The notes under the pieces are model-generated. The model was not told the origin of the DNA. It searched no databases and saw only the letters and a program-made list of their open reading frames with translations. A stretch of 42,872 nt of DNA, taken from Pseudomonadota bacterium. Lineage in GTDB: Bacteria > Desulfobacterota > Anaeroferrophillalia > Anaeroferrophillales > Tharpellaceae. Location: assembly GCA_011049115.1 (NCBI GenBank), contig DSCM01000020.1, forward strand, positions 1 through 42,872, in the 5' to 3' direction. The position numbers were made by a program, and so were the translations under genes. Position 1 is the first letter of the stretch. Every line of letters starts with the position of its first letter. Positions 23,383 to 28,391 of this stretch are shown one piece after another.

Positions 23383-24711
23383 TCAATGAATGACGAGGTT
23401 GATGTCGTCGTCAAAGGAGAATTCCGGGTCGGTGTTGGGCGTGTGGCAGATGGTACAGGTTCGCAGTTCGATCTTTTCGCCATACGGCAGAGCCGGATTT
23501 TGCCGGTGGGCCTCGGCCGGGCCGTGGCACTCCTCGCACTGAACATTGAAAAGATGTGGGGTGGCGGCCGGTGAAATGAAGCCTTCCTTGTCATGGTCGC
23601 GGCTGCCGGTGACATGACAGGGAAGACAGTCAGGGCAGAAATCCTTGCATTTTTTCTGCAGGCTGGCGTAGGCCTGGGCATGGCGGGAACGGCTCCAGGC
23701 GGCGACTATCTCGGAATGGCAGGGTTCACAGCTCAGGTTGCCGATATAAGGCACCTTGATTGTCGCCTGATTCTCGTGGCTCGCTTGAAGCTGTTCCTTC
23801 TCGATGTAATGCTGACGAAGCCAGACCTCGTAGTCGGCAACCAGATTGGCGACTTTCTGGTCGGCGGCGAAATCTTCCCTGTTGACCTTAATGATCTGGT
23901 GGCTTGCCGGTTTTCGGGCGGCGAAGTCCCAGTCCAGGCAGCCGATGGTTTTGCCATGGTTGTTATTTTTGAGCAGCCAGCAGTCGTTAATCTTTTCGGC
24001 CTCTGCGAAGGTGCCGCGTTGCGTGCCGAGAATGGCGAGGTCGAGTCCGGAATGTTCGCGCAGCAGATGGCGGGCTTTACTGTCGGAAAAATGCAGTACG
24101 GCCAGCGCGAGGTCATGAGGGATTTTTAGGATTTTTCCCAGGCTGGGAATCGGATCTGTAACGAAGAGGCCATGGACGGCCTTCTTTTCGAGGTCCGGAT
24201 CAACCAGGGCGGTAATCAGGATCTTGCGCCCGTCAATCTCCAGGAGCCTGTGGGTTTCAATTCCCGGAACCGGCGCTCCTCCGAGGTTGGCGCAGACAAT
24301 GGCGCCTCCGGGCACGCTTTCCTTGAGGGAAAGGATAAGTTGGCGGCCGTAGATCAGTTCCTGGTTGCCGGGAGCAAAGATCTCGGCCCCCATCATCTCA
24401 TAACCTTGAAGCGCGGTCTTCAGAATGCGGCGGTTGACCTCGAAGTCATTTTTCGAGTTGCCCTGGGTCAGATTGCCGCAGTTGATGAGTAAAGCCGGCC
24501 CGGCTTCCCGGCGAAGCTGGTCAACCACCGTTTTTTGCCGGGCCAGACCGCCCGCCTGTTTTTTGTGTCAGCCGCAGAGTTTGACATAGCCGGAAAGTGA
24601 TCCTATATAGATCAGGCGGAGACTGCTGGTTTCAGCCGGGCATCCGGAGGGAATCAACCAGCTGCAGGCAACGGCAATTAAGAGCGTGAGGAAGAATCCT
24701 TTTTTTCTCAT
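23383..24711 (-). CDS. Selenocysteine-containing UshA-like tetrahaem cytochrome c
   Basis: Read from ATG 24711 with one in-frame TGA (24570-24568, codon 48) taken as selenocysteine, the product is 442 residues. A Sec signal peptide (basic start, hydrophobic core FFLTLLIAVA) is followed by YIGSLSGYVKLCG-U and GGLARQ. Related proteins carry a PCGC..GGLAR motif there, so U replaces the second Cys. A metallophosphatase-like UshA-type domain follows (about 55-300), but its sites look altered: INCGNLTQ and GNQEL where GD and GNHE are usual. Four haem sites close the protein: CEPCH (328), CLPCH (362), CEECH (392), CTICH (419). Periplasmic; redox role unknown. An annotation that stops at TGA would begin at 24528 and lose the signal peptide, leaving haem attachment impossible. 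AAGGTAGG precedes the ATG. Confidence 0.85.
24537..24570 (-). promoter_or_regulatory. Selenocysteine UGA codon and bacterial SECIS hairpin
   Basis: On the minus strand the TGA (24570-24568) is followed after 18 bases by the loop GGTCTG (24549-24544). The loop is held by GGCGGGC (24556-24550) and GCCCGGC (24543-24537), a 7-position stem with one G-G mismatch. The E. coli fdhF SECIS, as I recall it, also has GGUCUG in its loop 18 bases after its UGA. A guanine at the start of the loop is the feature SelB needs. Confidence 0.82.
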
Positions 24712-25151: not shown

Positions 25152-25614
25152 ATGAAAACGTCGCCTGAATTTCTATCTTTAAAGAATTTCCGCCTGAATT
25201 CCGTTGCCAGTTTTGCCGGGAAGCTAAGTCAGAAGGCGCAAGCGGAAGAGAGGCTTAAGCAAGTTGTGGCGAGACTGAAGGCCTTGGAGGCCGAAAAACA
25301 ATGGCAGATCAAGAACGGAACCTGGGCCCACAGCTTCGATGATCTTCCCCGTACCAAGAAGGCCGGCCACCCCGGAACCCTTAGAGCAAGCCTCCAAGGA
25401 TGGAAAAGAGTTGGGGAAAAGCTGAGAAACAGCCAGATGACTATGGACTAGGTGCGTCAGGCCACCCAGGCCGCCTACGGCCGCTACCAGAACAACGAAA
25501 AACTGAAAAAGGCGTTCAGGGAAGGCTTCAGTGAAGGCTCCCGGTAACGTTCAACAGTTGATGGGTGATTTCATCGAATCCATTCCGGCGGAAATCGAAG
25601 AAGGTGCCGAATGA
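25152..25614 (+). pseudogene. Small unrecognised gene, broken by an amber codon and a frameshift
   Basis: From ATG 25152 the frame gives 99 residues rich in Lys, Arg and Gln with helical character (EERLKQVVARLKALEAEKQ) and then TAG at 25449-25451. The same frame continues with protein-like sequence (VRQATQAAYGRYQNNEKLKK) to a TAA at 25545. The next frame then continues with QQLMGDFIESIPAEIEEGAE and ends in TGA overlapping the helicase ATG (ATGA, 25611-25614). Taken together this reads as one gene of about 150 residues, translationally coupled to the helicase, with two disabling changes. No function is recognised and no ribosome site is clear. Confidence 0.5.
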
Positions 25615-28391
25615 CCCTTGAAAACAAATTGAATATTACCGATCAGATGGAACTGGCCCAGGCCGAAGAAAGAATCAGCAAGCAAAAAGCCCGGCAGATG
25701 TTTGAGCTGACGATAAATCGCAGCGGTTGTCTTGATAGTCGAGAAACGGTTCAGGAAGAACCATACGCAACGGAACTTGCAGCTAAATTAGGGCAGGGGG
25801 TAAAAGAGGATGGAATCTGCGGGGCGCTGTTGGCGCTTGCGGCCTTTGCTAAAACCCAGGGATTGCCTCCGGCAATGCTGTTCTGGCGTGATTTCGCCGC
25901 GGAAATCCTGAATCGCATCTGCCATACGCCGGAGAACGCTGCATTTATTGATGAGATTGAACCGTTAACTAAAACCCAGGCCGCCGTCTACAGATTGTCA
26001 CTGCCGCCGATGACCGGAGCGGAATATGTAACTGAAGCCACTTTTATCGACATCTGGAACGGCTTCAGCGCTTATCTGGGTCAAGCGGTTGCCAAAGCCG
26101 GTTCGCTGGCGGTTTTTCTTGAAAGCCGGGCCCCGCGCTGGCGGCAGGTCGGCCGGGTCTGTTTTCATCTGGCGGAAAACAAGGGTGATGGTGAGTATCC
26201 ATTCGCCTTTCTGGCGACCTACGCCTCCGGCCTTGGCAAGGCCGATAAACTGCGTTTTCTGCCGATCAGCCAGGCCCTGACTGAATATGCCGGTACGAAA
26301 AACAAAAAAGCCCTGTTGCATTTGCTGGTGCTGGTCAGCAATGCCGCCAAACAAAGCGAGCTGATCAAAGACTTGCTCGAATCCGGTGAGATTTACCACC
26401 CCTATCCGCTTACCGACGGCGAAGCCTATACTTTTTTGCAAGAAATTCCCCTGTATGAAGAAAGCGGCCTGCTGGTTTGCATGCCGGACTGGTGGCGCAA
26501 ACGTCCCAGAGTTCAGGCCCGGGTCAACCTCGGCGCTAAGGTACCGGGGCGTTTTACCGCGGACACCATGCTTGATTTTAATGTCAACGCCGCCATCGGT
26601 GACGAAGAGCTTTCCGCGGAGGAGCTGAAAGCCCTGCTGGCGGCGGGCAGCGGCCTGCGTTTTGTCAAAGGCCAATGGGTTGAGGTGGACGCGGCAAAAC
26701 TCAACCAGGTATTGACGCACTGGCAGCAGGTCCAGGCGCAGGCGGGGGATGGAATTTCCCTGGTCGAGGGCCTGCGGCTGTTGGCCGGGGCCGCGCTCAA
26801 TATGAAAGGCGGTAAAGAAAACGAAACCGTTCATGAGTGGTCTTTTATCGCGCTGGCCGCAGGCTTCAAGGAACTCATCGAAACCCTGCGGGCGCCGGCT
26901 AACGCCCGGGCGGTTTCTCCCGGGAAACTGCTGCAAGCCACCCTGCGCCCCTATCAACAACAGGGGCTTGCCTGGCTTAACTTTCTGGCGGAAGTCGGCC
27001 TGGGGGCCTGCCTGGCCGACGACATGGGGCTGGGTAAAACTATTCAGGTCATTGCTTTACTGCTCATCCGGCAAAAGCAGAAAAAATCCTCAACCCAGCC
27101 TGCGCTGTTGGTGGTTCCCGACTCGCTGTTAGGCAACTGGCAAAGTGAAATCGAACGCTTTGCGCCCAGTCTGCAATGTCTTTACCTGCATCGTGCCATG
27201 ATGGACGACAAAAGTTTTGCCTCCATGCCGGATGATCAACAGGCGAAATTTAAGGATGCAGACGTCGTTTTGACCACTTACGCCATGTTTTCGCGGCAGC
27301 CGTATCTCAGCGACTATCAATGGAATCTGGCCGTCATTGATGAAGCCCAGGCGATCAAAAATCCCGGCAGTAAACAGACCATCAACATCAAGAAAATCAA
27401 AGCCCGCGCCCGGATCGCTCTGACCGGAACCCCGGTTGAAAACCGGCTCGGAGACTTGTGGAGTCTGTTTGATTTTATCAATCCGGGTCTGCTTGGCAGC
27501 GCCAAAGTCTTTCAGCATTTTGTCAACAACCTGGAAACCCGTCGGCGCGATCAATACAAACCCTTACGCGCCTTGACCGCTCCCTACATCCTGCGGCGGC
27601 TCAAAACCGACAAGTCGATAATCTCCGATCTGCCGGACAAAACCGAAGTTACCGCGTATTGCCGGCTGACGAAAAAACAGGCGGTACTTTACGAGCAAAA
27701 CGTTAAAGACCTGGCTGCGGCGCTGGCTCAGGAAGCTGAGGGGCTGCAGCGCAAGGGCATGGTGCTTTCCTCCCTGATGCGCTTTAAACAGATCTGCAAC
27801 CACCCTTCCCAGCTGCTCGGCGACGGTCTCTTTACCCCTGGAGACAGCGGTAAATTCGAGCGCTTAAAGGAGATCTGCGAGGAGATCGCCGCACGTCAGG
27901 ACAAGGTTTTGATTTTCAGCTAGTACCGCGAAATGACCGAACCGCTCAATGATTTTCTCAGTTCGGTCTTTGCCTGTGAGGGACTGGTGCTGCACGGCGC
28001 TACCACAATCAAAAAGCGTCGGCAGATGGTGAACGCTTTTCAGGATGAACACGGCCCGCCCTTTTTTGTGATTTCGCTTAAAGCCGGCGGTACCGGCCTG
28101 AACCTGACCGCGGCCAGTCACGTCATTCATTTCGACCGCTGGTGGAACCCCGCGGTTGAAAACCAGGCCACCGACCGGGCGTTTCGGATCGGACAAAATA
28201 AGAATGTGCTGGTGCATAAATTTGTCTGTCCCGGCACCCTGGAAGAGAAAATCGACGAACTTATCAGGGAGAAAGATCGGCTGGCCGTCGATGTCCTTGA
28301 TGGCTCGGGGGCGGAAACCTCGTTCACGGAAATAAGCAGTGAGGAAATCATGAAAATGGTAACGCTGGATATCAACAAGGCAATGGCGTAA
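25611..28391 (+). pseudogene. SNF2-family helicase, interrupted by one in-frame TAG
   Basis: The 927-codon frame encodes an SNF2-type DEAD/DEAH ATPase. An N-terminal region of about 430 residues of the kind found in bacterial SNF2 proteins is followed by the SNF2 motor: LRPYQQQGLAWL, then ADDMGLGKT near 470, DEAQ near 577, and LTGTPVENRLGDLWSLFDF near 605. The C-terminal helicase lobe holds SLKAGGTGLNLTAA and ATDRAFRIGQ. Codon 771 (27921-27923) is TAG, in KVLIFS-*-YREMTEP where relatives have a Gln (CAG to TAG is one change). The second lobe is intact beyond it. A truncated product would lack motifs IV-VI and probably be inactive. It is coupled to the small gene upstream and lies 11 bases before the SWIM gene. 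Sequencing error or read-through are alternatives. Confidence 0.88.

Follow-up and report, generated by a model that had tools for sequence, protein, structure and literature searches.

Does a TGA codon inside the frame of a predicted multihaem protein end translation, or does it specify selenocysteine (Sec), and if the latter, what might such a protein do? The question is raised by a gene in the window, as we call the whole 42,872-nt stretch of DNA analysed here. A preliminary description of the locus had placed the TGA between a signal peptide and a long cytochrome frame, and reading across it indeed yields one continuous frame, with LSGYVKLCG followed by U and then by HKKQAGGLARQ, so that the flanks are those described (Table 1). 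Altogether, our results are best explained by a model that we hold with good confidence: the gene would encode an exported UshA-like CxU selenoprotein in which a fold of the 5'-nucleotidase type is joined to a four-haem domain resembling cytochrome c554, the metal site of the fold is gone, and a redox mechanism is the most likely one.

Table 1. Features of the predicted selenoprotein gene, in window coordinates.
Feature	Coordinates	Strand	Remarks
Predicted selenoprotein gene, complete	23383..24711	minus	442 residues with Sec48, translated with TGA as Sec; 16 relatives share the TGA
ATG start and terminal stop	start at 24711; stop TGA 23385-23383	minus	
Signal-peptide-like N-terminal segment, about codons 1-26	24634..24711	minus	MRKKGFFLTLLIAVACSWLIPSGCPA; hydrophobic
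TGA codon 48, read as Sec in Cys46-Gly-Sec48	24568..24570	minus	TGA in 17/17 of group A, 13/13 of group B, 14/14 of group C
SECIS-type hairpin	24539..24554	minus	stem CGGGC/GCCCG, loop GGUCUG 18 nt past the TGA
UshA/5'-nucleotidase-like domain, about residues 30-310	23782..24624	minus	AlphaFold2 and Foldseek; metal site degenerate
Cytochrome c554-like tetrahaem domain	23413..23745	minus	CxxCH at residues 328, 362, 392 and 419
Extra Cys pair C355-x3-C359 beside haem-2 motif C362LPCH366	23614..23649	minus	group A only

The first line of support for Sec comes from relatives. We searched for the gene in 99 genomes and define group A as the window gene and 16 close relatives (41-66% identity), drawn from the family to which the window belongs and the next one in its order. 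Each of these loci has a single TGA, at the position of codon 48, and since it is conserved across all 17 the codon is not there by chance. Scanning 84,980 genomes gave 15 group A loci, every one with the TGA; all come from metagenome-assembled genomes, with titles that read Deltaproteobacteria, Thermodesulfobacteriota, Tharpella, Anaeroferrophillacea or something less precise. Purifying selection acts on both sides of the TGA in group A, with dN of 0-0.11 against dS of up to 1.5 in the upstream codons 30-47. The C-G-U motif is present in all groups examined, as LCGU in most members of group A and PCGU in some. In another genome of the phylum a homologue with four haems (L105) reads PCGC, with TGC in place of the TGA, and thus forms a Sec/Cys pair with these genes; a second Cys homologue (L140) also has TGC at the Sec position. 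The window's genome encodes the matching machinery: tRNA-Sec (69.7 bits), SelB (364.7 bits, cut-off 242), SelA (580) and SelD (361), with the matches to selA, selB, selC and selD all above curated cut-offs and the SelD gene itself carrying an in-frame TGA. Both comparisons had been proposed as checks in the preliminary description, and both came out in favour of Sec.

The shared TGA, the Sec machinery, the Cys homologue and the hairpin described below together make Sec at codon 48 very likely, and from these sequence data we consider that SelB, guided by the hairpin just past the UGA, almost certainly inserts it. The opposing view takes the TGA for a genuine stop or an error of sequencing, with the gene split in two or read from a GTG at 24528. 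Such a frame does exist: it is open for 381 amino acids and contains all the haem motifs (CEPCH, CLPCH, CEECH and CTICH), while the export signal and C-G-U fall outside it. The preliminary description was therefore right that the signal peptide is lost without recoding, but overstated the case in saying that the haem sites would then make no sense. However, the same TGA with conserved flanks in 17 independent assemblies, together with the SECIS features, the full Sec machinery and the Cys homologue, makes this view extremely improbable, and we rejected an ordinary stop in a pseudogene on the same grounds.

The genome with the PCGC form (G098), whose assembly is 85% complete, has tRNA-Sec, SelA and SelD and no SelB over the cut-off. 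In two genomes (G032 and G069) two UshA-like TGA genes are adjacent, one of the PCAU and one of the PCGU type (L115 and L118). In the window's genome (contig C131, 21500-24000, minus strand) a 184-residue cytochrome of the c554 type, L086, has a TGA where a haem motif should have its second Cys codon (C-C-A-TGA-H); in nine relatives (L155-L163) this codon is TGC or TGT, and no GGTCTG-type loop follows the TGA. This TGA has two readings: it is a nonsense mutation or assembly error, or the haem-attachment motif contains selenocysteine.

A GGTCTG loop (24549-24544) exactly 18 bases after the TGA had been noted from the sequence, and we find it there, closed by CGGGC (24554-24550) pairing with GCCCG (24543-24539); loop and distance presumably match those of the E. 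coli fdhF SECIS. The hairpin folds with -14.3 kcal/mol, with a z-score of only -2.1. A published model of bacterial SECIS elements has a loop of 3-9 nt with an early G, a stem of at least 4 bp, a spacing of 16-37 nt and an energy of -7.5 or lower (PMC13188914). The bacterial SECIS search that the preliminary description had called for finds that the window hairpin fits this model, with loop GGUCUG, a stem of 5 bp, a spacing of 18 and -9.4 kcal/mol, as do 14 of the 17 group A members, versus a background of 5% after other codons. Three of the 17, and most of group C, fail a strict test for a contiguous stem; the stems of group C are shorter, and its loop and distance are the same. At Rfam gathering thresholds there was no match in the window, which is not evidence against a SECIS.

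Conservation of the loop is partly forced by the protein, because it encodes the Gly-Leu of the conserved GGLAR, and we therefore examined silent positions. The Cys homologues are too few to serve as a control (only three were usable, and one of these has GGTCTG), so the comparison was made with the other Gly codons of the same genes. In 50 of 54 family genes the second Gly of GGL, the one in the loop, has the codon GGT, which makes up 24% of the other Gly codons, and GGTCTG at +18 follows only one of 7269 other codons of these genes. In group B, Ser (TCN) often replaces the Ala (GCC) after GGL, and in most members the silent base of the first Gly codon has changed from C to A, so that the pair is kept. 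Across 41 sequences 89.8% of the cells of the helix are paired, versus 78.4% when shuffled and at most 50% when slid, and its covariation score is likewise above the shuffled and slid controls. The count of pairs changed on both sides was reached by 205 of 500 shuffles and is thus uninformative alone.

UshA-like CxU proteins are not new as selenoproteins. The 2008 GOS survey (PMC2398784) gives them as COG0737 CxU, and they have been listed since (PMC2398784, PMC9312934, PMC13188914), as the preliminary description had suspected, and a 2026 review lists NF041198 and also NF049981, a CxxU family (PMC13188914). Among NCBIfam profiles the window protein matches NF041198 (UshA-like (seleno)protein PCGU) best, scoring 188.5 bits where the cut-off is 275; the other group A members scored reach 188.7 and 210.4 bits and those of group B 191.1 and 261. 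The window protein has the C-G-U (CxU) of this family, as LCGU, and the haem region of the profile (positions 359-518) aligns to its residues 279-433. NF049981 gives 25.2 bits against a cut-off of 140, and the window motif is CxU, not CxxU. Because no scored group A or B protein passes either curated cut-off, we do not file the gene in NF041198. In a maximum-likelihood tree groups A and B stand together (100/100), apart from the PCGU members and their relatives, and group A is a clade (100/99). By this phylogeny the window gene belongs to a sister clade of NF041198 and is of the same kind.

The four haems, by contrast, do not set the gene apart from the known UshA-like families, as the preliminary description had supposed. 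The scored NF041198 members carry the same four CxxCH and the profile itself spans the haem domain; the haems thus belong to the family as already known. The window's genome alone holds three UshA-like genes of this kind, on contigs C20 (the window), C25 and C115; the C115 protein, with four CxxCH, scores 370 bits and is above the NF041198 cut-off. We therefore rejected the four haems as the novelty. What is new, to judge from the alignments, is a separate clade in which metal-ligand positions are lost, Cys46 and Sec48 are invariant and an extra CxxxC stands beside haem 2. A bolder reading, possible though we doubt it, would make groups A and B a third family of UshA-like selenoproteins, as yet unannotated, whose phosphatase site was dismantled and gave way to a Cys-Sec redox centre that would exchange electrons directly with covalent haems, an enzyme type pairing Sec and haem that has not yet been described.

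The fold of the N-terminal domain points to an ancestry among phosphatases, and its residues point elsewhere. AlphaFold2 models residues 30-310 with pLDDT of 83-97 in most blocks, and the best PDB matches are the 5'-nucleotidases 3ivd and 1ush (Foldseek E of 1e-18 to 1e-16). In UshA the ligands of the dinuclear metal site are D41, H43, D84, N116, H217 and H252 (UshA numbering). At positions D41, H43, D84, H117 and H252 none of the 17 group A proteins keeps the UshA residue, N116 is kept in one and H217 in 16, and five of the six aligned ligand positions are thus gone from all, or almost all, of the group. All 17 have Cys46 and Sec48, which lie in the loop after the first metal-binding motif. 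The first Asp is still present in 13 of 14 members of group C, nearly all of which lack the other ligands. From this pattern, the conserved centre of the N-domain appears to be Cys-Gly-Sec and not the metal site, and since the dinuclear site is gone the proteins of this clade are probably not phosphatases. A haem-less UshA-like relative has Ser-Gly-TGA (L060, G030:C11), with Ser replacing the Cys of C-G-U, which would be unsuited to a Cys-Sec pair there.

These data bear on the idea that the protein is a hydrolase or transferase, with Sec48 as a nucleophile on a sulfur or phosphorus ester in the manner of SoxB or UshA and the haems serving another purpose. It draws on the N-domain fold and on weak profile similarity to the SoxB and UshA families. 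However, the metal ligands are lost in group A and partly in groups B, C and D, and we know of no member of the UshA/5'-nucleotidase fold that uses a selenol nucleophile; we regard this idea as quite improbable.

The haem domain is assigned to the cytochrome c554 family by PF13435 (47.4 bits, cut-off 20.8, residues 328-397) and matches the c554 structures 1bvb and 6i5b. Outside the four CxxCH motifs, His344 and His402 do not vary in any group, and the final residue, His442, does not vary in groups A and B. Cytochrome c554 has a haem with an open site, and here too the two or three conserved distal His may leave at least one of the four haems with such a site. C355 and C359, directly before the haem-2 motif, occur in every haem-bearing group A protein and in none of groups B, C and D. 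One group A relative of 334 residues (L017/L103, G003) is haem-less and keeps both C-G-U and the TGA; the haems are therefore not strictly needed for the function of Sec.

How might the two domains work together? We envision a scenario in which the old substrate pocket holds a selenol/selenenylsulfide pair, made up of Cys46 and Sec48, that exchanges electrons with the four covalently bound haems; the haems in turn would link the protein to the periplasmic cytochrome pool. The N-terminus resembles a signal peptide, with a helix at 4-18 in the AlphaFold2 model and similar hydrophobic stretches at the start of relatives, and would direct export, placing the protein in the periplasm. The reaction could be the reduction of a small substrate containing sulfur, selenium or a metal, or the reverse. 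We propose a redox role because of the conservation and the domain architecture, and give this exchange of electrons between the Cys-Sec pair and the haems about an even chance. Sec insertion in vivo, the redox chemistry, Sec-to-haem transfer and the periplasmic location are what we infer from sequence; the AlphaFold2 model, with pLDDT below 50 in the Sec loop and 41-65 in haem-domain blocks, is too weak for Sec-to-haem distances.

Sec48 could instead be a ligand that, with Cys46 and nearby His, binds a metal ion or small molecule in a remodelled pocket, the haems just feeding electrons. The C-G-U loop does come after the first metal-binding motif of the fold, and in group A His49, His199 and His207 vary little or not at all. 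But His199 is missing in groups C and D and His49 in group D, yet C-G-U is kept, and the dinuclear ligands themselves are lost. We judge a ligand role unlikely and favor the redox pair.

Among the neighbors of the window gene we found no functional partner: it is isolated in a housekeeping neighborhood, where an acyl-CoA ligase, argJ and secA lie to one side of it and a helicase and uvrA to the other. Relatives have, judged by eye, a similar uvrA/acyl-CoA ligase setting. The SNF2-type helicase (NF058637-like, 25611-28391, plus strand) has an in-frame TAG of its own (27921-27923, within KVLIFS*YREM), with the rest open from 27933.

In the literature we searched, the UshA-like CxU selenoproteins, known from lists since 2008, are given no function, although a proposal in the new-selenoprotein papers of Haft and colleagues could have been missed; their name points to nucleotidases. 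This clade, which has lost the metal site and kept Cys-Gly-Sec and four haems, speaks for a redox reaction in the family and against phosphate hydrolysis, and this divergent variant makes the question of phosphatase or redox protein testable. Our scores also suggest that these genes escape the current family models. With a score under the NF041198 cut-off, such a gene would probably be annotated as starting past the UGA, at the cost of the signal peptide and the active-site motif.

Comparison with known systems helps to define what is particular to this clade. The periplasmic 5'-nucleotidases, including UshA, share the N-domain fold and continue into a C-terminal 5'-nucleotidase domain, where the window protein has its haem domain instead. 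The c554 family (PF13435, 1bvb) shares the sequence of the haem domain and a conserved WxxTxHA motif; in the window protein this domain is fused behind an UshA-like selenoprotein domain. NF049981, UshA-like family 2, is only weakly similar (residues 31-118, 25 bits), its profile of 262 positions matching the N-domain alone and its motif being listed as CxxU. The ExtKL multihaem cytochrome (seleno)proteins (NF040886) likewise pair Sec with c-type haems, but the match is to the haem part only, at 16 bits against a cut-off of 250. Closest is NF041198, which has the same UshA-like N-domain, C-G-U followed by GGLAR/K, the c554-like domain with four CxxCH and the GGTCTG loop at the same distance. 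The window clade branches separately from it and has LCGU in most of group A where NF041198 has PCGU; group A lacks the first metal Asp, which group C retains, and has the extra CxxxC at haem 2 and the C-terminal His.
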